The position numbers were made by a program, and so were the translations under genes. Shown here piece after piece: positions 1 to 33,400 of a stretch of DNA of 64,000 bases. Numbering within the stretch: the first letter of the stretch is position 1; the number at the start of each line of letters is the position of its first letter. Source of the stretch: Schizochytrium sp. TIO01 (lineage: Eukaryota; Sar; Bigyra; Thraustochytrida; Thraustochytriidae); assembly GCA_004764695.1 (NCBI GenBank), contig SMSO01000035.1, positions 2,168,001 to 2,232,000 on the forward strand. The letters are read 5' to 3'. Below the pieces are notes generated by a model. It did not search any database. It had not been told where the DNA came from and saw only the letters and a list, made by a program, of their open reading frames with translations.

Positions 1-1048
1 TCGCAGGCTGAAGATTACTATGGACCACATTTTGATCATGAAGATAACAGAGCCCCTTTGTGATACTACACAGAATTCTCTCTTTGTCGTCAAGACTTAG
101 AGTAGTATGTGTGTCACTCTGTTTCATTTGTGACAGTACATGAGCAAGAGACAAATCGCACTGATCCATGACCAAATGAAATTGGTTTTGGATTATGCAG
201 GTCCCGAGTAGGCATATTATATTATTGTGGAACAATCCACGACAACATTCGGCTTCGTTGATCAAAGCCTTTCTCTCAGCAAATTCAGACGATGCAGTTA
301 CTTTACGATATTTTTTTGTAGCAATTGGTATACTGACACCGTTATCATCACGAAGGATACCGAAGAGGACTGTTCCAAAACTTCCATTGTCACGAGTGGG
401 ATCTGGGGATTCTATTGAAACCGTTCCTTGCTCCAAGGTGGCGATTTCGGACTCATGAGTCCCTTGCAGCATAGAGGTAAACTCCTGAAGCGCCTGCTGC
501 TCTGTCTCTGTCCCGGCTTTTCCTTCGACAATATCTGCGAGGTCCATATCAGATTTATCCTTTATCATCAACAATAATGTGTCCGCTTGATCGTAGCCTT
601 GATCTTGGTAGTGCGTTATCATTTCTTCAAGGTGAAGCTGGTCTTCTTCGGCGTCGTTGAGGTCCATTTCTTCGATAGATATGGGAGGCACCGGGAACTC
701 AAAGCATACATGATGGACATGAGTCAAAGTCTGTAAGCGATGCTCCACATACAAGAGCGCTTGGTATGCTCGCTTGGCGTATATGAGCTGCAGAATCTTA
801 GCGGAGCTATTATCCGTAATTGGCTCAAAAACTCCACGAAGGAGAGAGACAGCGTTGCGTAGATTGGCCTCGACTATGAAAAAATTGATATCCTCGTTCT
901 GCGAGTACTCAAAAAACCCTGCAAGTTTGTTGAAGGCATTATGGAGGTGTGCAGCTCTTTGGCGGCAGGTGTTTGTATGCTCGAGAAGTGCGGCACCCTG
1001 ACATGCAAGTTTTTGCGAATAAAAGAAGTTTGCAGGTGGGTTGGGCAT
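1..1048 (-). CDS. Pseudokinase-like protein with helical N-terminal region, 3' part beyond the window
   Basis: An open frame runs from an ATG at 1048 to the left edge (349 codons, no stop); an in-frame TAA lies upstream at 1070-1072. Roughly residues 10-115 look all-helical. A linker rich in Asp, Glu and Gln follows to about residue 210. Then comes a kinase N-lobe: a glycine loop reading NGSFGTV, the ATP-binding lysine in IPIATKKYR, a helix-C glutamate in INEAECCRGL, a hinge around FHLVMDQCDLSL and helix E ending GLCYLHDQNVVH. The catalytic loop reads HSNLQP instead of HRDLKP, so the catalytic Asp is Asn and the following Lys is Gln. ATP binding may survive, but phosphotransfer is unlikely. 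The helical region plus pseudokinase order resembles MLKL-type proteins; that is an inference. The start is uncertain: an acceptor-like TGTCAG about 35 bases into the frame could mean a spliced 5' exon. The activation segment lies outside the window. Confidence 0.72.
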   Translation of the reverse strand, partial: MPNPPANFFYSQKLACQGAALLEHTNTCRQRAAHLHNAFNKLAGFFEYSQNEDINFFIVEANLRNAVSLLRGVFEPITDNSSAKILQLIYAKRAYQALLYVEHRLQTLTHVHHVCFEFPVPPISIEEMDLNDAEEDQLHLEEMITHYQDQGYDQADTLLLMIKDKSDMDLADIVEGKAGTETEQQALQEFTSMLQGTHESEIATLEQGTVSIESPDPTRDNGSFGTVLFGILRDDNGVSIPIATKKYRKVTASSEFAERKALINEAECCRGLFHNNIICLLGTCIIQNQFHLVMDQCDLSLAHVLSQMKQSDTHTTLSLDDKERILCSITKGLCYLHDQNVVHSNLQPA

Positions 1049-17285: not shown

Positions 17286-20200
17286 CTAGTCATTCAGAGT
17301 ACAAAGCATCGCTACTCCTCTCCAAATCCAAAAGTCCGGTTCAGCCTCTGTGGGAAGATAGATTGGTAGAACAAAATTAGTGGACATTCCTGTTGTAGAG
17401 AGTGCGCCAGCTCGAGTGCTTGTTTTGTAGACTGGACAGGCGTACAATGCAGGATTGGGTTTAAAATTTTCAGTGGGTAGAAAGTGAATGGGTCTCATTG
17501 GCGAGTACATTTGCCCTGGACCTGCGTCTTGGATTGAATGCAACGACGCATCCCACCTGGCACCTTCCATGAAGAGGCCTGACACAATAACACCATTGTC
17601 CGGACGTTCATGGATGTCCTCCTCTTCACATTTGAAGACCGTAAAATCAAACGACAGTGAATTTACCGCAACCTTATGCTTGCGTGCATGGGTTTGCATA
17701 ATTCCTGTCATGAATCCTTGTGGGAAAAAGAACACTGGCAAAGGAAAAAAGACAGGCTCTCCATGTCTCAACCATTCACGAAGGAAGCTAACGCGAATTT
17801 TAAGGTCCTCATACCAGGACGACAGTGGGCGCAACGAAGGATAAGCCACCTGTGACCATAACGATGGTACTTCATTGTTCAAAAAACTGGTGTACATCTT
17901 GTCCAAATCACTCGACATGACAACGAATCCCTTGATTGCACGAACTAACTCGAGCATGGTAGACTTCATACGCTGCAGCAGGAGATTAAACTTAACAATT
18001 TCTTGTTGTAAAAATGTCGCCAGTGGATCATAGAGGCCAGTCTCTTCATTCAGTATGAATGTCTTTGCCCCTGCTTCAGTTTCAACATCCATTTCTTCAG
18101 GTAGATCATCCTGCATAACATTGGTGAGCGCCTGTACAACCTCATCTGGAGTTGCACCTGCGGCACCTCCAGTAGCCCGAGGTTCAATCGAAATTACTGC
18201 TCCCAACATGGAAAGACTTTCCTTAAGCTGGAAGGTCGTGTTTGCGTTATCATGCATACCGAACACCTCAGGGTCCTCAATATCTGGTAACTTGGACACG
18301 TATGATCTATATCCTGCCAAATCAGTATCAGCTGGTGCATAGTAACTTCCTGAACTGGAAAATTTATATTCGTCTTGAAGGATAGCAGTGGTGAAGAACC
18401 TACCCAAGATACTGAGCAGACACCGCCGGTCCCAATCATCAGTAACGCGACCACCGTAATTAATTTGCCCGGTCACATAGCGTAGAGCATCCCAAGGGAT
18501 TTCATCTTGTTCATTCAAGAACCTCGCAAGGCCCTGTGAGGAGCATTCAAGATCAGAATCGTCAAAATCATACCTAATATTCCATCCAAGAGGTCCGAAT
18601 TTGCGCCTTTCTTGGATGATACCATGAAAGAAGCATAGCCCAAAGAGTAGCTTACGAAAGTCACGCGGGCGAGCTGGGCAGCTGTCCAAAGCATCTTCTC
18701 TGAGAACAGTCTCAAAGGAGCGGAAGATATTGGCGCGAAGGCCCTTGGGTGGTTCATTTGTCAATTTAAGACCATTCTGTAAAACACTGACAGGAAAATA
18801 TGGAGCCGGAAAGGATGTGAGAAAAAGACGGAAATCGTGATGGATCATATTTCCACTGACTCTCAGAGAACTAGTCGCTCCAGCTCCTTGTGCATTTGCT
18901 GAAGCAATTACATCGCCCACAACATTCATCACGTCCCCTGTAGCCCCATCTGGAGCAGATGGGCCCCCATGCTGAGCGCTAGCCGGCTCATTAAAACCTA
19001 TGATGATTTCCTCTAGCTTTGGCATCCAAGATTTGGCTAAATGGCAATTTTGCAAGAGGACCCAGTCTCCCGCACGTGTTGCATTTGCAATCAAAGCCTC
19101 TGCTTTGGCACCTTGACCTTGCCCTAAAGAGATAACATGAAGTCGTTCAGTGTATCCACACTTGTCTGCAAACCGGAGAAGGATACTTGTTGGGTCAGCA
19201 CCTTGCGAAAGTACAAAAATACAAGGAGTCTTATGGTCCATATCTGCACTAATGTCCTCCATTGACGTACTTGGGCTCTGTACAAATGATGCGCCAAGCT
19301 CAGCACAGACGAAATTGCGAATGGAAAACACAGTCTTTTCCTCACGAAAGGATTTTACCAATATGAGCTTCTGAAAATTACTGAGACAAATCGTTCCATC
19401 GTCATCAGTCAAAGGATCTTCGTGCCCATCCTCTACATCGTTGGTTTCAGAATCCTCATCTGCGTTATGCTTAGCCGATGCACTTTCCATAGATCGCCCT
19501 CCGGAATGACCGGGTGGGCATACTGGTACAAAACCTTCCAAAGGTAACTTTTGGTCTTCAGGGTTTTCACTACTCGCCCAGGTTGCCCATTTATCATCCC
19601 AGTGCTCACAGATAAACGTGTGTAAACCTCCAAAGACTCGAGGATTCTCGTGGCTCAAAACTGCTATAGTCTGGTATGCAATCTGCGGAAACTTCTCTGG
19701 CAGTCCACCAGAAGGCTCCTGAGCAAGCTCTGGATGAGCACTTACAAGGGATGCTGGTCCTCGCAAAAAAAGTATCCATTCGAGATTTGAGATTGCCTCT
19801 GTTTCAAATCTCATAATTCTTACAGTTATCAGAAAAGCAAAGAGGAGCTTGTGCGTTTCAAAGAGACCTCGGCAAATGTTTTTAAAGACAAACTGATTCT
19901 GGTAGGTCATAATGTTAAGAAGACGCTCAGCTTGCTCTATGCTTGGCTCACTATCATCTATGCTGCGACAGAAGAGCTTCTGAAAGTATTCAAGACTATA
20001 AGCATACATAGAATCGATTTTCGCTAAATCTGCCACTGCAAAATACAGGATACTGCCGCGACGTGCAACTGCGCGATAGCTGTTGCGCATCATGTTGACC
20101 TCGTGATTTGTTTTCTCTGACTCTGTCACGCGCTCTGAAATAATAGCTGAGGTTGTCTTTGAGTCGGCAAGTGTGTTGATGAGCTCCTCATCATCCAGGA

Positions 20201-23200
20201 TATCACCTTTTGATTCAGACAACATCCGCAAAATTTTGCTTTCGATATCCTTCAGTTGTTTCTGATCAGATGCCATGCTCATTAGTAAACGATTTTTGCG
20301 ATCTTCGATATCAGGCTTTTCCTTTCGTACGACCATGCCCAAAAGTTGATCTTCCAAACCCTCCATAGTTACGGTGAAGTTGATAATAGTGACCTTGATA
20401 CATACCTCGGGGAGGTAGTGCGGGTTGGCCATTTTAGTAGTCATGAAGAACTTAAAGGATGCATCATAATCTACGTCAGAGTCACCAATGCGAATGAGAG
20501 TGCGTCCATTCTGTCGGAAGATTGCCTTTTGAAGGACAGGCTCTAAACCAGGGTCAATCTGCTCAGAAAGGTCTTCCACAAGAAGAGGGCGTCCATTACG
20601 TACAGCATTCTCTAACACTCGTAAGAGATCCTTGTCGGACATTTTCACACACTCAAGGCCCATTTTGGCCTCTTTCTGCTTGATCCAGCGATTAGCTTGC
20701 ATCTGAGGGTCAATCATCAAAGGCCATCGTTTGCCGTAAGTTGCAAGGAGCGCATTATTGGTGGAAACCTCATCTGTTGGAAGTCCACAAATCTGCCATT
20801 CGCGTACTAAAACAGGACTACCGATAGTTTCGACGAGATTGAATAATCCGCTGCAAGGAATTTTCATGTCCTGAACTTTCTTTTGCCACAATTCTACAAG
20901 ACCTTCCCTGTACGAACCCGTGAAAGCACCATAGTAAGAGACACAAGCTGCAGCTAGGAAAACATCGCCCACAAGTTCTTGGATTTGTGAATCAATGATC
21001 ACAACTGACTCGCGCCAGCGAACACCCTCGCTTGCAAGCCCACTGGTCAATTTTTCTGCTCGCTCAAGACGAGCCTTCGTTTGTTCTGCCTCATCAGCGA
21101 GTCTATTCTTTTCCGCTAGAGTGGCGTCACATGTGGCCTGAAGGGCATTTACCTTGTCAACAACAGCTTGCAATGCATTACGCTTCTCCACAAGTACTGA
21201 GTTCGCCTCGGCTAATGCATCATTCATTTCTTGCAATCGCTGCTTCTTAGGACCTACCTCCTTAGCAACAACTGAGTAAACATCCATTGCATGCACCCAC
21301 ATACACAGTGAAGTAGCAGCCTTGCTAACCTTCGCTACGTTATCCACAGCCATGATAGGATCATCTACATATTTCTTGAGTTTTTTCAATGTTGCTGCTG
21401 GAATATTATCCTTGTCAAATGTTTTAAGGTTGTCCATGAACTTGGTATCACTCATAACCTTCTTTGCTGTGTCCCAATCAGGTTTTTCGCCAAGTAACAC
21501 GTTCACAGCCTCCATAACTGTCTGTACTGCAGCAGGAGGCTTAATGAAGTTCTTGATCTCAGTGATATCTTTTTGTCAAGTGCATCAAGAGACTTGATTG
21601 CTGTATCTAAAGCTGGCATAGCTTTATCTAAATCGCGCTGTGCATCAGCTTGTACCTCAGCAACTTGCGTCGCTTTTGCGTTGACCTCTTCCTCCTCAGT
21701 GGCTACCTTCGCCTTGACTACACTTGCCTCAGCCTGTTCTTTGGCGACCTGTTTCAGTAACTTTTCAGCGTCCTGGCTCTTCACTTCGAGTACAGGCATA
21801 AGGTCATTCAGTTCCTTTTTCAGGTTTTGAACCATATCGTTTGTCTCCTCAAGTTTAATGATACCGTTGCTAAGACGGTCTCTTGATTCGGTCATCTCAC
21901 TTCGTTTGTCCTGAAGCATTGAAATGTACAGCTCAATTAAATCTAAGTAGGATTTGGGTGTTGTGTATACTGTACGGCCCAGTTCTTCATGGAAACGTGC
22001 AGCGCAAGTTGAGATAGAGGTGTGGACTACCGCACAAGCCGAAACAAGAGCCTCACGGCATTCTTCAGACGGCAGCTCGAGCTTTGAAAGAAACCGCTGA
22101 GCTACAGAATTTAATGCACTTTGTGGCCATTCCAGAAACCAATCAATTGTGCAGCAATTAATTAATGATGGAAACTGACGACACCACACACGAAGCGCAT
22201 TGCCCACAGGAGACATGCAAAGAACAATGTGTAGATTATCTCTAACACGATTGACGAAGACCTGTTTGCAATTATCTCTGCTTTCAGGGATTCCCATCCG
22301 TTTTACCACATCCCCCATATCTGCAACAATGCGATCCATCTCATCTTGTGGAAAAAGATTTGGTACTTCTCCCGAGTTCAAAATATTGTTGACATCTTCG
22401 AGGAAATCATCTACGATGATTTGAGAATCAGTAAATAAAAATCCCACTTTGCGCCCAGCTACACCAGCTGTAATCATCATCTTCTTGATGTCCTCACGAA
22501 ACTCAACGGGTCCATAACCCTTTGATATTTCAATCTGTACGCAACGCATGCCACACATAAACATTGCAAGTCGCGACAAGCTCTGCTTACCTGAACCGCC
22601 AACACCAACAAGCATTGCATTTCCTCTTTTCTGACGAAGAATGCGTGAAATACGAGAAATATGCTCCATGGCATCTTGAAAGAACACAAGGTTCATTTTG
22701 GATGGGAATGTAATGTTATAGTCATCAAGGGCATCTTCGAGAACTTTTGCAACCTGATTGAAGCTTTGTGCTTCCTCATATGGACGTGTATCAATGACTA
22801 TCTCACCTTCCTTAGCATCGTTTTCTGCATCGTTTTCGCTCTCATCATTCTCATCCGCGAATCCACGTAAGAAATCAACAAAAAGAAGCGGCGGCTTAAT
22901 TGCGGCCTTTGAAGCTGCACCAGTTGTTTCTGTCGTTCCAAAGACTTCTTCGTGAGTCCATTGAACTTTGAAATTTCTCCGCAAGAGCTCCAGAATTGCT
23001 TCAGTGAACCATGCTTTATCTTCGCTATTGATTAGGCGATCATGAAAAACGCGCATGCACTCATGCGCCCAAAGACGAATCATCGTATCAGGACCTGAAC
23101 ATCGTGGAGGTTGGACCATCAATATACCCTGGACAACTTTGCTCAAGTCCCGCAGGTTAAACGTATAATGGCTTTTACTGGGTGTAGGAAGCATTTCTTT

Positions 23201-26200
23201 ACACATTCGCTGATAAATGTCAATTGTGGACTGAATCACAGCATGAGTAAGGCTTCGAATTTCAGGTGCAAAACCATGTTGAAGGTAACCAGAAAGAATA
23301 CTGGAAAACATAATCATCATTGCATCATCCGCTGCGGGTGGCATGCACAAAACAGAAAAGTGTCTAACAAAGCGAGGTGTGACAATATTGCGTCCACCTC
23401 CAGGAGGTGCTGCAGCGACTGTGAGTACTGTGTCCTCAATTTCCTTGAAGAAGAGCTTTTCACGATCATAAAACCCGCCAAAATCAAGAAATTGGCGCAG
23501 AAGCTCGATAGGAGGTTGTGCTCCATACTCCTCCACTGTGGGCATGTTGACATCATCAACGCAGATTACGCAGGTTTGACCAGCAGGAGCACCTAGTAAA
23601 GTTTTACGCTTTTTCTCTAATTTTGACTCTATAGAAAGCTGAGTTACTTTCGAAGCAGTTTGTGCACTAAATCCAAGTAAGATTGGCATGACCGGTTTGC
23701 TTCTGACAATACCAAGACGCTGATTCCGCTGTTGTTCTTTTGCTGCAGCTGCAGCTGCAGCTGCAGCTTTGCTGTTTTCTCCATCTGCAGCCGCGGCTGG
23801 CTCGCTTTCTTGTCCAACCTCAGCAAGCTCACGCAGAAGGCTTTGAAGCAATACTGTCTTACCAGTACCTGTCACACCAGTCAGAAAACATGGTCGCTGA
23901 ATTGCAAGTAGCTTCTCTGCTAAGTACGAAAAACGCACAGTGTCTATTGTAGGAACGACAAGCTGAGAAAATGGTACTCGTGTGCTGTATGCAAATGCTG
24001 GTACAACTTCGTCCCATCTCCTTAACTCTTCTTCCCGAAAATCAACAAAGTAGTCAAAGACCTGACCTTTGGCCGAAAATCCAATCATTGACAGTGAGGC
24101 TCGTTCAAATGCAACTCGCGCCCACTCGTCAAATGATTCGCGGTTAGCTGCAGTGATGGGACCTCCCAAAGACCATGTCACAGCAAATGCAAAGAGCTTA
24201 TCAACAAGGCGAAGAATACGCTCTGTGAGCTTTTGCTGAGTGGCTTTATCATCTCCACTCCCACTATTGCTGGTTCGTTCCGAGTGCAGACTAGCCAACA
24301 ATTCAGAGGAACCAAAAAGAGCTTGAAATATTTTGCAGAAAGAAGCGGCTGCTTGCACACCAGAGGTGCTTATAGGTTCTGTACAGTGACGTCGAACAAA
24401 ATCTACACCTTCGTGAAAGACAGTCGTTACACAATGAGAAAGACGAGTGGAAATGGGTTCATGATAAGCGCCAAAAGGTTCTTTCATATCGCGCATTAGC
24501 CAAGTCTGAACATACGGAAGCCATCCGAGATCATCAGGGGTCATGTAAAGCACACCAAGGCGAGAGACAGTGGCAGGAGATGCCACTTCCAGATCTTGAA
24601 CCTCAAAAACACACTTCATCACAGCCTTAAGTTTGATTCGCTCGCCGTTTGCAAGACAGAGGGTCATATTATCATCAAGTACCGTGTTCATGTTTTCGAT
24701 CCAAAGTGCGTCAATCGGTCCGTCAAAAACAATCCATTTTGAGTCGCTAGTTTCACTTGCGACTTGTGCTCGCATAATTGAAGATGCAAGTCCATCTGTC
24801 CACTCCTGTGTAAGTTCGTTGAACTCACCATACAGTTCTCCCATTGTGATACACTTTGGGTTCAGGATGTTCTGATGAACAGTACGGTAAATGATTTTAT
24901 CGTCCGGCACTCCAGCTTCTTGTTGCATGATATAGAGCCGCGAAAGCGCATCTGCAAGTGTTTTATACGCAGTTGTTTTCCACCACCGGTTGGTCCAACG
25001 ATTGTAATTCCAAAACGCACATTCATTGTCTCATAGAGTTGAATTATTTTCCCAACAAATGATTCTACACATTGTAATGTATTGGAGGCGAGAACGGTTT
25101 CCACCATTTCGCGAAGATCGCCTGTATCTTGGTAAGGTACTGTGACACCAGGAAACAGATCTGCAAGAATACCAAAGAAAGAGGAACATCCTGGCGCAGG
25201 AATTTGGGGAGGTTTGAGTCTCGCATGGCACGAATCAGTACAACATCTTCGGAAAGATGCGGGTTTCCACGCTTTAAACCACCAGCCATGACCAAAACAG
25301 ATTTCACAGCTCGAAGTCCATAGTCATAATGACACTGCTGACTCAGCTGCTCGCTGCTGAGCATGTACATCTTTGTCATTTTACGGCTTAAAGTCTTCGC
25401 ATCGCTGAATCCTTCTGCAAAAAGCATAATCTCAGCAATTAAGGAATAGTCAGGCACCATCATCGCTACTGGCCTGAATAATACCTTCAGGTTATCTGGA
25501 AGCTCTGTACGACCTGCATAGCCAGGGTTCATGGTAATAATGACATGGTACTCCTTCAGCTCAATCTGCCGTCCCTCAAATGCAATTGCATTAAATCCAG
25601 CAAGTCGACCTTGCCGAAGAGTAAGTAGCTGCTGCGCAACTACCGACAAAACCTCAATATCAATGCGATTAAACTCGTCCAAACAAGTCCAACATCCTGC
25701 TTGAGCTAGGCCGCTAAAAAGTTTTGCCATCATTTTATAATCAATTTGATCTGAGCAATTATAGACAATGCATTGGATACCTAAAGCCTTTGCAAGATCC
25801 TTTGATGATTCTGTCTTTCCAGTTCCTGCAGGGCCACTAGGGGAACCACCTAACTTAAGCTGTAACGCACCTGTCAAGGTCATCCAGCAGCGATCTGTAA
25901 GTGGAGTGATTACAAGTCGGGATGTACACCCCTCATACTCATACGCGTATCGAATAACTGAATTTGACTGACGCACCACACAATCATCAATGTCTTCCTT
26001 TTGCCAGTAATATCGTAGCTGCTGCTGCCATGTAAAATTGTTGAGTGAATCAACGTTCTCGTCTCTCAAGGTTTCCACAATATCACGGGCATGCACATCT
26101 GTAGTGACCAGTGCTACAATGATTTTACGCTCCCGCTTGGTGAGGTCAGATCGAACAAGCATTGTAAGTTTGTCGAGCTCTTCAACGTTTCTATTATACC

Positions 26201-29200
26201 ATGCCTCTAGCGACCCAACGTCATCTTGATAAAAGCTATCCATGAAAGATGGTTCGGTCGCAGGAACCCCTCTCCCAGCACTACGAGAAGACATATTCCG
26301 GATAGTGGCTTCAGTACCCAGCACCCATGCAATTTGTGCAACTGTGGCAACGATTTGTCCAGGGTGAGACCGAACCCACTCAATTCGAGGCCGCTCAAAG
26401 AAATCTTCAAGGCCAACTTTCATGAGTTTATGTAGACTCGACTTCATATCCTTTTCAACTGCAGTGAGCCAATCTTCAACGTTACCACGTGCCTTGAGAT
26501 TCTTTCCAAGCTCGATGCGCTCGTCCTCAGGCGAAATCATTGCTTTGATGTCAATTGATTTGGGTTGGTCACCAAAGTCCAAAGCTACCAGTGCATCGAA
26601 GCATTTTCGAAGGTGCGGTTGAACTGCCTGTGGATCCTTAGTTTGGGCAAGAATTTCTAAAAGCTCATCATTGGATAGAAAGTAAAATCGCGCAAAAGCT
26701 GCACGCTTTGTCTCCAAGTAATCTTCTAGACTCTTTTGAATTTTTTCCAAGTTTGCGTTATGCTTTCGCAAAGTTTCGCGCAGGCCAGGACGTGTACAAC
26801 TCTTCATGCAGTTGGGATCATCCGCTGTACGCCTCATGTTCTCGCGGAACGAAGCATCAATTTTGGAGAAGAGCTTCGATTCTTGTGGCAACTGGCGTTG
26901 AATATCAGGTGCACTAAAAATTGACTCCAAGTACATCCAGTTCCGTTGGCACAAGAGCCACTCTTCAAAAGTCTCTTGGAATAAGACCAATTTGTTTCTC
27001 CAATCATCCACCTGGTCCTTAATTGGCTTGACGTACCGTGATCCAAGAATTGTGTTGATGGTAACCAAAGAGTCGTCAAGATCTACAATGACATCGTCCA
27101 CGCCACCGATGATCTTATCTTTCGTATCCTTGTACTGGAGAATAGTAAAATCTGCAGTTTTCCATTTCTCTGAAACTTTATGCAACATCTTTAAGAGCAC
27201 CTCTTCCTGCACTGCCTCGACTGCAATAGTCTCGATAACTTCACCGTGATCCATCGCCCGACGCTTGATAAGGTGGCCCAGCTTAAGGTCCTCGACGCCA
27301 TTGACTTGATACCCCAGAACCGTATGAATGATCTCCCAGTGTCTTTCTTGAAGAGCTGCGCAACGCAAAGCAGTAACGACTGGCATTGTTCGCTTGAAGT
27401 CAGAAACCTTATCGCGAAGGGATGGTGCGACTAAATTACCAGGAAGACCACGCTCTGCCTGTAGTGCCGTTTTCATATACTTTTCGACCTCTAGAAGAAT
27501 TCCAGCAGCATCCACTTCAGCGAAAACAGTATCACACCAAGATGAGGAGAGCTCACTCCACGAGCGTACCGCGCGCCACAACTTAAGCTTGACAGTGAGG
27601 TCCTGCTTAACCTCATCAAGTTCGTCATATGTAGATATAGGAACTCCAAGGGTTTTTTGGTAATGCGTAAATTTTTCCCGTTGTGCTTGGATACTAGTAA
27701 ACTGCTTTTCCGCATCTTCGAGATATTCAATCACGCTAGATGACTTTGCATCTGGATCAAAAACCATCACATTACTAAGTACCGTGCGTAGGTTGCCAAC
27801 TTTACTCTGCACACGGGGTATCTGTTCCTCTAGTTCCTTAGCAAATTTGATTGTATTTTCAGCCATAGTATCTTCGGAGCTTTGAATAGAGTTATGAAGA
27901 GCCTTGTTGGTTTCTTTCAGCATGTATATTGATGTATTGTCCTCTTCGTCCAAGGGCACTTGGTAATCTTTGCATAATTTGTAAAGCTTCACAGTAAATG
28001 TAAAGCTTCCATCGATACCCTCGATTGTCTCCGTGACCTCTTTAAGAAATGATAACTGTTCGACAAAACCATCCACCGAATATGCAGTTTGACTAAGAAT
28101 ATCATCTCGATGCCGCATGTCGCGAAGATTTTGTTGAGTTTTTGTACGTAAGACATGGGGAAATAGGGAACGGATTTGGTTGAAGCAACGCACAGGGCTG
28201 GGGATGAATCGAGATTTGAGGTTCTCTGCATCAACACGCACAATGCCAATTGTGCTGTGTGTGGGCATGGAGTCAAACATTGAGTGTTGCGCACTGTACT
28301 TACTAAGTAGGCTTTGAAATACCTCAAGTGGTTGAACAGAATAGGCCTCGAGGGTGAGTCCAGAAAGAAGCTCCTCATTTTGGACATATTCCTTTACGAA
28401 TGGTACAAAAACCTTGCAAAAGTTGGTTGCGTCGTCAAATGCGGTACGAAGACATTCACCAATATCATCGACCATTGACTGAAATTGAGCACCTTCTACA
28501 ATCATCATTTCTAGATCGAGGTGATCTCCCACTGCGTTTGATTCCTCCATGGAGGGTTGGGCATATAGTGCAAGGTCAGGGTGTGTTAACAGCCGTTCTG
28601 GACCTGTAACCACCTTGAGGGTATCGAAAATGATACTTTCTGTCTCTGTCCGGAACTCCTCTGCTGTTGGGTAAAACGAAACACTGGGTTCAGCAAGAAC
28701 ATCTCCTTCATCGTGAGCTTTTAACCGATCTGCAAGCTCTGGAAGTGGCACACTTGCATCCATATGCACAATGAAGATGGGCTGTGGCTCTCGTATCGCT
28801 GGGGTTGATAACTGTGACCCTCCGTTCAAGTTCGCAATTGGAACTTTGCTCCCTGCAAGAAGAGATTTTCTATGTCCATGGTTGTCACCAGTGATAGCTA
28901 CGTGCGCTCCTCCTGCTCGATTGTGATGATCTGCAGCATGGCGCGCCTTTTGTTTGTCAGAGATATGAGATAAGAAATCAGCCGTAGACGCAATGGCCAA
29001 GCTCAAAAACGTATCAATTACAAGAAAGTCAACGAGTCGAATGTATTTTGTAAGCTTGCGGCACTGCGTACGCATTGCTGCGCGCTCAGTAAATGTGATT
29101 GCCCGAACTTTTCGTCCACTCTCAGCAGCGGCTGCAGCTGCTGCAGCAGCCGCAGCTCTTTCTTCTGGAGTTGCACTTGCAGAGAATTGTCGTGCAAAAC

Positions 29201-30458
29201 CACTCTCTTCAAGAAAATGTCGAAGTGCAGCATCACAAGTGTTCATGACCAGATGACGCACATCAGTTGAGAAATGATCAAGTTGACTTCGTGCATGTTC
29301 TCTTTGATGCTCTTGAGCAGAGGTAAACTCTTGCAAAGTGTAAGTTTTAGCCGCTTCAATAACAAAGAGCTTCGACGAAGCAGCATTCACGCACATTCCT
29401 CGAAGCCTTAGAAGTGATGAACGCAACAACGAGTGTAAAATAAAGAGGTTCTCTGTTAGGCTGGCCTTTGCAGCATTAGTTTTCCGTGCACGCACATTGT
29501 GCTTCCACTCTTTAAATGATTTCCACATTCGATATTTATGGAAGAAACTGATCCGCGTAATTTGGGAAAACAAATAGTACTCACGTTCATACTGTTGCAT
29601 TGATACAAAATCAGTCCCTCCTCCAGGATGGTGTACGGTAACCCCATTTGCTGATACAATGTAAAAATCCTGAGCAGAAGCGCCCAAATCCCCTTTGGTT
29701 TTTGATAATGTCAGGTCATATGCAGTGCCCCCCGGCTTTTTCACAAAATATAAGAATGCACTTTCATCAACCAGAGCGGCGCACTGTGGATGTTCGGCAA
29801 TCATTCGTTCGGTAAAACTCTCATGGTTAGCTTTATATCGACGCTGTCGCGCAAGATCAGCTGTCAATTGAGCAACACTTTCTAACGTTGAATCTGTAGC
29901 CGACGGTGAAGATTGTGAGGAACAGAACTCCCGATGTTTCTCTTCATCTACTGTTCCTTCAATAATAGATCTTTGCACAGAAAGTTGTGGCACAACTGTT
30001 TGGGGTTTGCCTGCAGTGCTACGGCGTGGCGAGGCGGAGGGGTCTCGCAGGGTTCGATTACGGAAAGGGAAAACAGCATTTTTGGGTCCTGGCCCCGCCA
30101 AGACTGCTTGATTCATGCGAGCCTTTGAAGACCTCTCACGAGCAGGAGGGCGTGGCGAGAGCTCAGATGGGATATATTCTTGGTAGTGAGGGTGCTGATG
30201 CTGGTGTAGTGACGTTGCATCTTGCTGCAGCGCCGTAATTGCAGGGCTCCTCCCTGCACTTGCATACAGACGATTCTCTAATCTCTCACCCGGATGAGAT
30301 TGCTGTGCAATATTTTGTGCTATTTCTTCTGGTCTTGGGCTCTGCTTCACAGTACTTTGCTGTGAAGCTCCTCCAAAGACCTTTGCAGGCATTCGAAGTG
30401 CATCATCTTTCTTGCCAGTACCTTTCGAGCCAGTGCCTTTGTTGTGAGTGGTGTCCAT
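17286..30458 (-). CDS. Axonemal dynein heavy chain, inner-arm type, interrupted by three frameshifts
   Basis: This motor ATPase drives sliding of flagellar doublet microtubules. Three consecutive minus-strand frames (30458-25065, 24928-21503, 21515-17286), plus a short bridge near 24980-25180, join to about 4,390 residues, a normal length for the family. The N-terminal tail includes a poly-Ala run. AAA1 has GPAGTGKTE (about residue 1542) and Walker B CLDEFNRID. AAA2 has GPTGGGKTT, AAA3 GVTGTGKT with Walker B VICVDDVNMP, and AAA4 GVGGSGKQS. The stalk and microtubule-binding tip follow, then AAA5, AAA6 and the C-terminal domain ending STTGMSTNFV...CTLND. That ending and the single-head length point to the DNAH3/6/7/12 inner-arm group; the exact subtype is not certain. 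Each break is explained by one missing base in or beside a short homopolymer. No other stop or gap is seen, so sequencing error or very recent decay are the main options. No intron is needed. Confidence 0.93.
21570..21574 (-). other. Dynein frameshift 3 in the stalk region (A5 where A6 is expected)
   Basis: The coding strand reads GACAAAAAGATATCACTGAG. One more A turns DKKISLRSR into DKKDITEIKNFIKPPAAV, the conserved end of coiled coil 1 leading to the microtubule-binding tip, and joins the frame beginning MEAVNVLLGEKP. Confidence 0.9.
24976..24979 (-). other. Dynein frameshift 2 inside the AAA2 P-loop (A4 where A5 is expected)
   Basis: The coding strand reads GGTGGTGGAAAACAACTGCG. The Walker A motif breaks exactly after GPTGGGK. 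One more A gives GKTTAYKTLADALSRLYIMQ, as expected for AAA2 of dynein, and leads into the next long frame. Confidence 0.9.
25172..25185 (-). other. Dynein frameshift 1 (one base missing)
   Basis: On the coding strand the sequence reads CCTCTTTCTTTGG. The frame before it gives RQDVP and the family sequence resumes one base out of register as FFGILADLFPGV. Adding one base in this pyrimidine run restores continuity. The un-restored frame ends at 25065. Confidence 0.85.
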
Positions 30459-33400
30459 TGGAGGCTATTGTGATCTGGACAATATTCGTCTTCAATCCCC
30501 AAGGATGAGCCAAACCCAAGAGGCGACTGCTCAGCCTCTGTGAAGCCTGCAAAATATAAGGTTGCTCCAGCACCGTCTCTAACTCAAAGTCTACAGCCAC
30601 AGTCTCCAGCAGGGGCTTCCGTCTTCAATCTTGCTTTGGGTCACTGAGTTGACTCAAGCCTCTCGCCCAAGTCCACCAATCTGATCTACGCTACACACAG
30701 ACAAGTCCTTTTCAGACTCTCTGCGCGATGTTTTGTTGCCGCTGGTGCTGAAGTTGCTGGTACCTAGCCTAATAAGTCTCAAGTATTGTTAATATACACA
30801 CGAAGACACGAAGGCAAGCTCAATAGCCTTTCTGCTGAAGAGCAGATAGACAAATGGCTTTGAATGGCGCTTTAACACAACCTACTGTACCAAGTATTGC
30901 TGCCGCATATGATCACGTTGTACAGTAGCGCTAATAACCTGCGGTGGCAGCCTAGGTTTGTTTTCTTCCACAGCTTTCCGAAAAGTTATACTTCGAACGA
31001 GTTTACCTCGCAGCAGCGTATGGTCGCCCCTTCTGATTTCCCAAAAGCTTGAAATTAATTCCTTCGCACGCGCTTACGCTCCAAAGAAACCACGCATCAA
31101 ACAGTAAACATCTACACGCTCGCCTTCATCGTAGGCACACCCGCAATTCGCAATTCCTGCCAACGGTCACCTTGTTCCCTGTGTTACCACGGTCACCTGT
31201 GACAATAGGGGAACCCGCCCCCTTTCTTTCGTTGTAGGACTACTATTATACATCTACATGATACGCTTAGGAGGTGACATCAACTTTATTATAAAAATAT
31301 CCGACACAGTATAAAGATAGGGCCGAGTACATCATAGATTAATCGATGATGCTGCACTGGTAGTCTTAGTTTAGCAATAGAAGCAGGTGAATAGGAAGAC
31401 CTCCTTCAAAACAATGCTTCTTCTAAGTACAAACATAGCTACGCATCAGTACCTAACTCTTTCTATAAGAACTGCAAAAAATTTTGCTCATTTTCATTTC
31501 CTTTGTTCATTTGTTTGTTTGTTTGTTTGTTTGTTTGTTTATTTGTTTGTTTGTTTGTTTGTTTGACCTATGTTTGTTTTGGAAAATCCAAATCATGGCA
31601 TGTAGGAACACGAAGAAGTACCGGAACTTGCAGCCCTTTTCTTTCAAGTCAGCTTGAATAAGCCCAGCTTCGACGTTGCGACCACCCGCTGTCTCCTCCT
31701 CCTCAAGTTCTTACGAGAATGACGCCAACATTAGAATCGATCGACGTGATCCGCTTTTATATCCTATACTTTAGAATAGTATTGCTAGCAGCTATTTACA
31801 TAGTACTTTAAGTTTTCATTATATGTATATGTATATTTAAAAAAATCAATTGTAATTTAAAAATTGTTTTAATATCATATGATGTATGCAAATATGGTAC
31901 AAAGTTGTAGTAAATAAAGTAATAATTTAATTAATTAGTTAATTAATTAAATAAATAAAAAGAGTTGAGATCAATGCGTGGGAAGTCGTAGGAGGAGATT
32001 TCAGAGACTTCCCTCGGGTCCGCGATGCTTCGTGCCGAAGCGCGTTCTGTGATCCGTCGTTTCGCCGCATAACAAAGCTGAAGCTTCGTCGACCCTCTGT
32101 GCCCATTCTCGCAGTCATCGATGCCCACTTTCACAGAAGCCTGAGCCGAGTTCGAGGTTGAAGCAATTGATCGCTTCGCAGATATTGCAATTCGCAATAA
32201 ACAGCGGACAGAGAGCGGGTTGAGGATGACTGAGCAGAGATCGATTACTTTTGCCCAAGATGAAGATAGTTGATTTTAGGCACCTTCGTTTAGATTGTGC
32301 ATGTTTGCATCTGTAGAGGCTGCGCTCGAATGGACTTGTGGGCAGATGCATACGCCGCGGAGAAAGAGAATGTACAGGTATGTATGCCTACAAATTGCGA
32401 AGAATGAGGTCGGTCTTGATTGCGCAGGAGTCATTCCTTTTGCATTGGCCAGTTTATCTGTGCGGGTTGAAAGGCTAGGTACCTCTGGTTTTGTGTGTGA
32501 TGGTTTCCCCTCTCGATCGATCGAATGGGGGCAATGTGCTCACCTGATCACTGATGAATTGAAAATTGAGAGCTGCGATGGACCTGAGACATGGCATCCT
32601 CCAAGGCATCGGCAACTTGGGTGGCAGCGCCGATACAGATAGAATTTGTACAAGTCAGCAATCTTTGACAAAGAGAATACGATAAAACCGGGTTCAGATT
32701 CAGAAGCATAAATGCCAGAAGTACCACCTATATTCAAGTTGGATTCCTATAAAAAAGCTGCGGCTTCTTCGTTCGTTCGTGCACTGATTCCATTACCTGA
32801 AGTTCATACACGAATCTTCATGCGCCCTGATCTTGCTCAGATGAAGAACAGCCTGTCGGCCAAAGATGGCACTGGACAGTCTTGGAAATGCATGCCTGAA
32901 AGCAATTGAACTGATCTACAGCTCGAACTCACAACTTGAGGTTTATTTTGTATTTTTCTAGTGCAGCAATCAACACAGAAACGCTAAAGCTGAATTAAGA
33001 CGACAGTACCTACTGTAAAAGAGAGAGGTCCTAGCTCTTACAAGTTATAAATTGCACACACTGCCTACGCTCTACAGTTCAATATCGAGACCACGGACCT
33101 CCAGGGCGTAGACGCTCCACGGTTTCTGACGTGCAATCGGTCGGTCTCCTGGCTCGGAGAGGGCGTATTTGCGCGGCTTCTGATCCTTTTACTTGCGGTG
33201 TTTGTCAGACAAAACTCCCTTCGGTAAACTTGGATACGACTGCTACGTTAGTACGTAATGACTACGTACGAAGCCACCCATGAGAAGAGCGAGTCATTCG
33301 AATTGACCATTCAATATTGCTGGCGTAGTATTGGCATGCGGGTGACTGCACATGAGATGTAAATAGAAGTAAACTAACTGCACCGCACTTGATTCCGGCA

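Follow-up and report, generated by a model that had tools for sequence, protein, structure and literature searches.

The gene at the very start of the analysed stretch of Schizochytrium sp. TIO01 DNA (the window: 64,000 nucleotides, G000:C34:2168001-2232000) belongs to a multicopy family of large proteins. Judging from sequence, these appear to combine three parts: a helical bundle of the cell-death type, a kinase (dead in some members), and armadillo (ARM) repeats, which in several copies vary on one face. The family looks like a home-grown system of recognition and self-destruct receptors, with a putative cell-killing role.

The window gene and its paralogs

The gene lies on the minus strand, in a frame that is open from 1069 to 2, where the first ATG is found at 1048. 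Only a part of the gene falls in the window (Table 1); the entire gene spans G000:C34:2165137-2169048 (-) of a 64.06-Mb genome in 37 contigs and encodes 1303 aa with no internal stops. The order of domains in the protein is helical N-terminal domain, linker, pseudokinase and ARM repeats. The last of these lie beyond the window, where about 15 repeats follow the kinase (Pfam ARM_LRRK2, E 1e-32; Arm, E 2.1e-12). The first-pass annotation had read the window as an all-helical region ahead of a pseudokinase, in an MLKL-like architecture. The all-helical region is borne out, since the three peptides quoted for it, at residues 24-42, 60-74 and 93-108, lie in a domain that is conserved in 12 unbroken frames and helical in a low-confidence model. 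A reading as MLKL only is too narrow, because the C-terminal ARM repeats make the protein more than an MLKL.

Table 1. Features of the gene in the window (positions are those of the window).
Feature	Position	Strand	Basis
5' portion of the gene, coding for residues 1-349 of the 1303; the rest, up to G000:C34:2165137, lies beyond the window	1..1048	-	Open frame
N-terminal helical domain, residues 1-116, MLKL four-helix-bundle-like	701..1048	-	Conserved in 12 unbroken paralog frames; low-confidence single-sequence model; MLKL profile match
Cys28, invariant, near the start of helix 2	965..967	-	Paralog alignment
Linker, residues 117-204, mostly helical, at the position of the MLKL brace	437..700	-	Profile alignment and low-confidence model
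DAEED motif, residues 132-136, opposite DADED of human MLKL	641..655	-	Profile alignment
Pseudokinase portion in the window, residues 205-349 (Pfam from 221)	2..436	-	Pfam; RIPK1 is the best PDB sequence match
HSN, residues 343-345, replacing HRD; catalytic Asp lost	14..22	-	Motif reading

The full-length protein matches the protein kinase family PF07714 at residues 221-478 (Pfam, E 7.5e-37), with the kinase fold directly after the brace-like linker. Its motifs read HSNLQPAN, with HSN for HRD, and NFG for DFG. Because these replace HRD and DFG, catalysis should be lost, and the window copy is by its motifs a pseudokinase, in agreement with the annotation. The same motif reading finds intact kinase motifs in L014, L012 (5863-9795) and L022, so that candidates for paralogs with an active kinase, which the annotation had suggested looking for, are present; the motifs are altered or degenerate in the window copy, L016, L024 and others. 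In PDB, a paralog with active motifs best matches an EGFR entry, followed by RIPK1 and, after it, STK24 and others, which leaves the kinase group ambiguous, and the NCBIfam matches reflect mostly general kinase similarity.

Within its own genome, the window protein has 36 matches. The N-terminal domain, the linker and the kinase are unbroken in at least 12 frames, and further copies are broken pieces. The presence of the N-terminal domain in 12 unbroken frames, with identities to the window copy down to 18%, indicates a conserved domain and not a chance stretch; L22, C28 and E60 are invariant in 13 aligned rows. Family copies are clustered on contig C30 (178-243 kb and 741-754 kb) and contig C33 (2448-2470 kb). 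L010 (G000:C30:176000-185999) holds two copies in which the frame is broken near residue 88, and the unbroken L011 gene is very similar by eye; together, L010 and L011 present a run of three family genes of very similar appearance. Frames with a common AKRRPQLSND stretch adjoin family genes in two clusters (L011:5732-6277 and L018:7420-9999 (+)) and are possibly a common mobile or companion gene.

Single-protein searches of the genome with three members detected the N-terminal domain outside the family in none of the candidates scored, except for one match at E 0.39. A single-protein scan of viral contigs yielded 11 pattern stretches, none of them confirmed, and one of genome contigs yielded 63 stretches, again with none confirmed; the two collections consist of viruses and prokaryotes, so that these results have no bearing on other eukaryotes.

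It should be noted that the remainder of the window contains several long frames that were recognized by eye. A single frame of 7939 aa (35745-59564, +) appears to encode a giant protein of extracellular type, with repeats like those of cadherins or CSPG, three adjoining long frames (17286-30464, -) read as one dynein heavy chain, and a further frame looks MCM2-like; the dynein and MCM2-like frames mark the DNA as eukaryotic. RNA families and tRNAs were sought in the window, and none was found.

Similarity of the N-terminal domain to the MLKL bundle

The N-terminal domain is probably a distant MLKL-type bundle, a statement of kinship and not of family membership. Three profiles of the family were compared with MLKL: A1 (13 rows, residues 1-119), A2 (12 rows, residues 1-204, from an alignment built before any MLKL comparison) and A3 (9 rows, residues 1-119). 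Against all PDB sequences, MLKL accounts for the top 6 of 10 matches of A2 (E 0.0056-0.057), in an alignment that is co-linear over the four-helix bundle into the start of the brace and places DAEED on DADED. With A1, five MLKL sequences (E 0.73-1.3) rank behind six other rows, in co-linear alignments that cover almost the full length, and MLKL is absent from the matches listed for A3. In hhalign comparisons with residues 1-183 of human MLKL, A2 gave a P value of 8.1e-4 with a probability of only 24.5, and A1 a P value of 0.062 with a probability of 0.9.

The A2 score against the same human sequence, 15.0 bits, was reached by none of 2000 shuffles (1906 reported, best 11.3), none of 236 overlapping chunks of the dynein and MCM frames of the window (best 7.1), and none of 300 column permutations (best 6.7), and the reversed profile scored -4.8. 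Omission of single rows gave 10.9-16.1 bits, with one of the 12 values (10.9) below the best shuffle. By subset of rows, the seven close paralogs scored 6.1 bits and the five distant ones 10.2; by columns, the bundle alone scored 12.2 bits and the linker/brace alone 5.4. Extension of the profile into the brace thus raised the score from 12.2 to 15.0 bits and improved the E value from 0.73 to 0.0056. A1 and A3 scored 11.6 and 8.5 bits, a narrow margin over the best of 1000 shuffles each (11.5 and 7.9), and exceeded all 236 dynein/MCM chunks (best 4.9 and 4.4) and 200 permutations (best 7.4 and 6.9).

Pfam MLKL_N matches two of the 12 members in A2 (best E 0.0091) and one of 13 in the shorter set, in all cases under the curated cut-off (for example, 13.6 bits against a cut-off of 27), and a scan of the genome with MLKL_N gave no matches. 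In two Pfam scans, the window N-terminal domain alone had no match at E <= 10, and in a third it had one at chance level (YxiF, 0.099); its one match in PDB has an E value of 2.1. No RPW8 or HeLo families are listed in the Pfam scans of the window and the members, in which HMMER filters drop weak matches. Mt_ATP-synt_B and LYRM2-like, each of which matches three of 13 members in the shorter set (best E 0.014 and 0.031, in a similar register where two members are displayed), were provisionally set aside: in the longer set, LYRM2-like matches one of 12 and Mt_ATP-synt_B is not listed, and neither would explain the order of domains.

Within residues 1-116, a low-confidence single-sequence model predicts helices at 6-23, 28-46, 54-74 and 81-116; a model of 204 residues merges the first two. 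Both consist of helices only and, with pLDDT values of 49.8 and 49.9, are too poor for a fold comparison. The net charge of the bundle is +1 in the window copy and -6 to +4 in 13 family rows, versus +9 in residues 1-123 of human MLKL. Because the match depends on the alignment, stays below every cut-off, is accompanied by a near-neutral charge and has no usable fold model beside it, it is counted as probable only. The MLKL-like architecture that had been proposed is supported in part, by the A2 match, its hhalign P value, its controls and the two MLKL_N matches; the dependence on alignment, the sub-threshold scores and the charge count against it.

The main alternative, which we regard as unlikely, is that the bundle is a helical adaptor or docking module of the plant MCAfunc/ARO/PUB kind, which would hold a partner or the kinase in place; the proteins would then serve as ARM-based kinase scaffolds and take no part in cell death. 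DUF7792, an N-terminal domain of plant ARM proteins, matches one member (L012:4655-5008, E 0.033) in a register near that of MLKL_N, and the missing positive charge of the bundle would suit a docking role. Plant MCAfunc domains may themselves be kin to MLKL. Clades fused to ARM repeats and kinase-like proteins are described among plant MCAfunc-domain proteins in the available portion of PMC8049495, a portion in which MLKL is unmentioned. Nevertheless, the top PDB match is MLKL, with the caveat that PDB may lack such plant domains, and a pure scaffold would not predict the diversification of one ARM face.

It is distinctly improbable that the N-terminal region is some other helical bundle, or a coiled coil, with no kinship to MLKL and matching it by composition and helix periodicity: the alignment dependence, the unreached cut-offs, the poor models and the weak matches to other helical families (two in three of 13 members; ATP-synt_DE, equal to MLKL_N with two of 12 in the longer set; DHC_N2 in one member at E 0.008, slightly better than MLKL_N; none shown over its cut-off) would fit such a bundle, but MLKL scored above all shuffles, permutations and dynein/MCM chunks, narrowly so for the A1 and A3 shuffles, the brace extension lifted the score, and MLKL had been proposed from the sequence before any search.

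Variation in the ARM repeat arrays

The arrays match the ARM repeats of Vac8 and LRRK2, and in many paralogs the repeats within an array are nearly alike. Mean amino acid identity between repeats is 0.85 in L011, 0.82 in L012 5863 and L015 203, and 0.81 in L023. Some paralogs carry repeats that are more than 85% identical over at least 100 aa, as in L011, which has three identical repeats of 44 aa each at 870, 1093 and 1182. The array of the window copy is not homogenised: the mean is 0.40, the best pair reaches 0.59, and the nearest repeat lies within the gene for none of 11. One family member has a frame of 3031 aa (L023:320-9412, -) with 54 ARM repeats detected, of which 35 of 36 ungapped ones have their nearest repeat in the same gene. 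L015:203-2521 (-) is a second homogenised array, of 17 repeats, in a separate frame directly after a family gene.

Repeats were scanned in 20 frames, and pN/pS was calculated for nine arrays with mean identities of 0.62-0.85. This selection omits the low-identity arrays (L009, which is the window gene, L016, L020, L022 and L024), those with few ungapped repeats (L014 and L021 with two each, L025 with six, L018 with eight), and both L010 frames, which are copies very like L011. The nine most variable of the 44 positions, set in three arrays and in agreement with the mean over all nine, are 2, 27, 30, 31, 34, 37, 38, 41 and 43. Those from 27 to 41 form one face of one helix, with conserved neighbours, in separate arrays. 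This is the long third helix of the repeat, which in ARM proteins faces the concave groove. For positions 26-42, a stretch picked after the nine-array profile had been viewed, the helical moment of diversity has a permutation p of 4.5e-4 in the three defining arrays and of 9.5e-4 in the remaining six; because the test arrays include neighbours of the training arrays (L012 5863, L015 203 and L017 490), this hold-out is not fully independent.

Over all pairs in the six held-out arrays, pN/pS is 1.00 at the nine sites, and so not above 1, versus 0.40 elsewhere. Close pairs, which are non-independent, are scored at the same sites that defined the variability and take no account of recombination, give higher values: at up to 15 nt (646 pairs), pN/pS is 2.28 (1.17-2.94) at the seven face sites versus 0.86 (0.52-1.00) elsewhere, and 2.65 (1.25-3.55) at the nine sites versus 0.65 (0.39-0.77) elsewhere. 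At up to 10 nt (351 pairs), the values are 3.21 (0.99-4.80) for seven sites and 3.55 (1.12-5.48) for nine, and at up to 6 nt (130 pairs) they are 3.85 and 3.66, with intervals that extend below 1.

The variation might instead have arisen as constraint relaxed and gene conversion acted among the members of a multigene family in decay, and not from selection on binding, and the broken copies, the held-out pooled value and the interval for the closest pairs are in line with this. We consider that explanation quite unlikely, as relaxed constraint is at odds with variation on the same helical face in separate arrays, with the conservation of neighbouring positions, and with close-pair values above 1.

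Proposed mechanism and known systems

Our tentative reading, which falls a little short of an even chance, is that of a diversifying receptor family in which recognition by the ARM groove is coupled to an MLKL-like bundle gated by the kinase or pseudokinase. The members would be lineage-expanded, probably intracellular receptors with three working parts. The C-terminal ARM superhelix, with repeats homogenised in many members and one face of the long helix diversified, would bind variable partners of pathogen, virus or non-self origin. The central kinase, whose motifs are intact in some paralogs and lost in others such as the window copy, would act as the switch. The third part, the bundle with its brace-like linker, would be distantly related to the four-helix bundle of MLKL, a homology that the profile matches support; released or oligomerised on activation, it would act on membranes, with death or arrest of the cell as the outcome. 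The window copy, as a pseudokinase member with an old, diverged array, could be an effector or helper for hypervariable sensors with an active kinase.

More doubtful is the wider proposition that a lineage outside animals, plants and fungi possesses its own repertoire of recognition and death, made up of one-chain receptors whose hypervariable ARM groove would sense non-self and whose kinase or pseudokinase would set off the MLKL-like bundle, and in which active-kinase members trigger pseudokinase members such as that of the window. By scan, the genome contains few NLR-type domains (at least two NB-ARC and at least seven NACHT matches), and for this reason one may speculate that the family fills an NLR-type role. 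If the proposal is true, MLKL-type bundles fused to kinases are not confined to animals, plants and fungi (taken alone, the bundle has a broader distribution, as one paper already counts bacterial Bell domains among HeLo relatives), ARM repeats become a further scaffold for recognition that diversifies rapidly, beside WD, ANK and TPR, and the family offers a candidate system of intracellular immunity or allorecognition, open to genetic tests, in a microbial eukaryote.

Several known systems share parts of this design. LRRK2 likewise has ARM repeats (the ARM_LRRK2 match at E 1e-32) and a kinase in one chain. In LRRK2 the kinase comes after the ARM repeats, whereas here it precedes them, and LRR or ROC-COR matches were absent at E <= 0.01. 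Plant MCAfunc/ARO/PUB proteins also join an N-terminal domain to ARM repeats, according to the accessible part of PMC8049495, and are linked to one member by the weak DUF7792 match; unlike them, the present family has a kinase between bundle and ARM repeats, and several of its arrays are hypervariable on one face.

The fungal NLRs with repeats of high internal conservation (HiC), such as the het-d/het-e proteins of Podospora, resemble the family in their homogenised repeats with variable positions on the presumed binding face and in forming a multigene family with broken copies (PMC4986451 and PMC1805685, in the parts available). Dyrka et al. (PMC4986451) report that the repeats of fungal NLRs are conserved and carry selected sites on their concave face, and Paoletti et al. 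(PMC1805685) describe the same pattern in het-d/het-e WD repeats, again in the available parts. The differences are that the repeats here are ARM and not WD, ANK or TPR, and that a kinase takes the place of NACHT/NB-ARC, of which Pfam finds none at E <= 0.01 in the full-length L009, L022 and L021 proteins.

MLKL of animals, together with plant MLKLs and fungal HELL-kinase proteins, shares the order of bundle, linker and kinase or pseudokinase, the co-linear profile match over the four-helix bundle and the start of the brace, and, for the window copy, the pseudokinase. Unlike MLKL, the family has a long ARM array after the kinase, a bundle that is not positively charged, several paralogs that keep catalytic motifs, and at least 12 unbroken copies. 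The fusion of bundle and kinase is already known, as HELL domains fused to kinases or pseudokinases are reported for fungi in the part of a review that we drew on (PMC12881547), and MLKL homologs for fungi and plants in the excerpted part of PMC11476962. A limited search of open-licence papers gave, among the matches listed, no account of a bundle-kinase-ARM family. What did not appear among the papers listed is the ARM extension with its hypervariable face.
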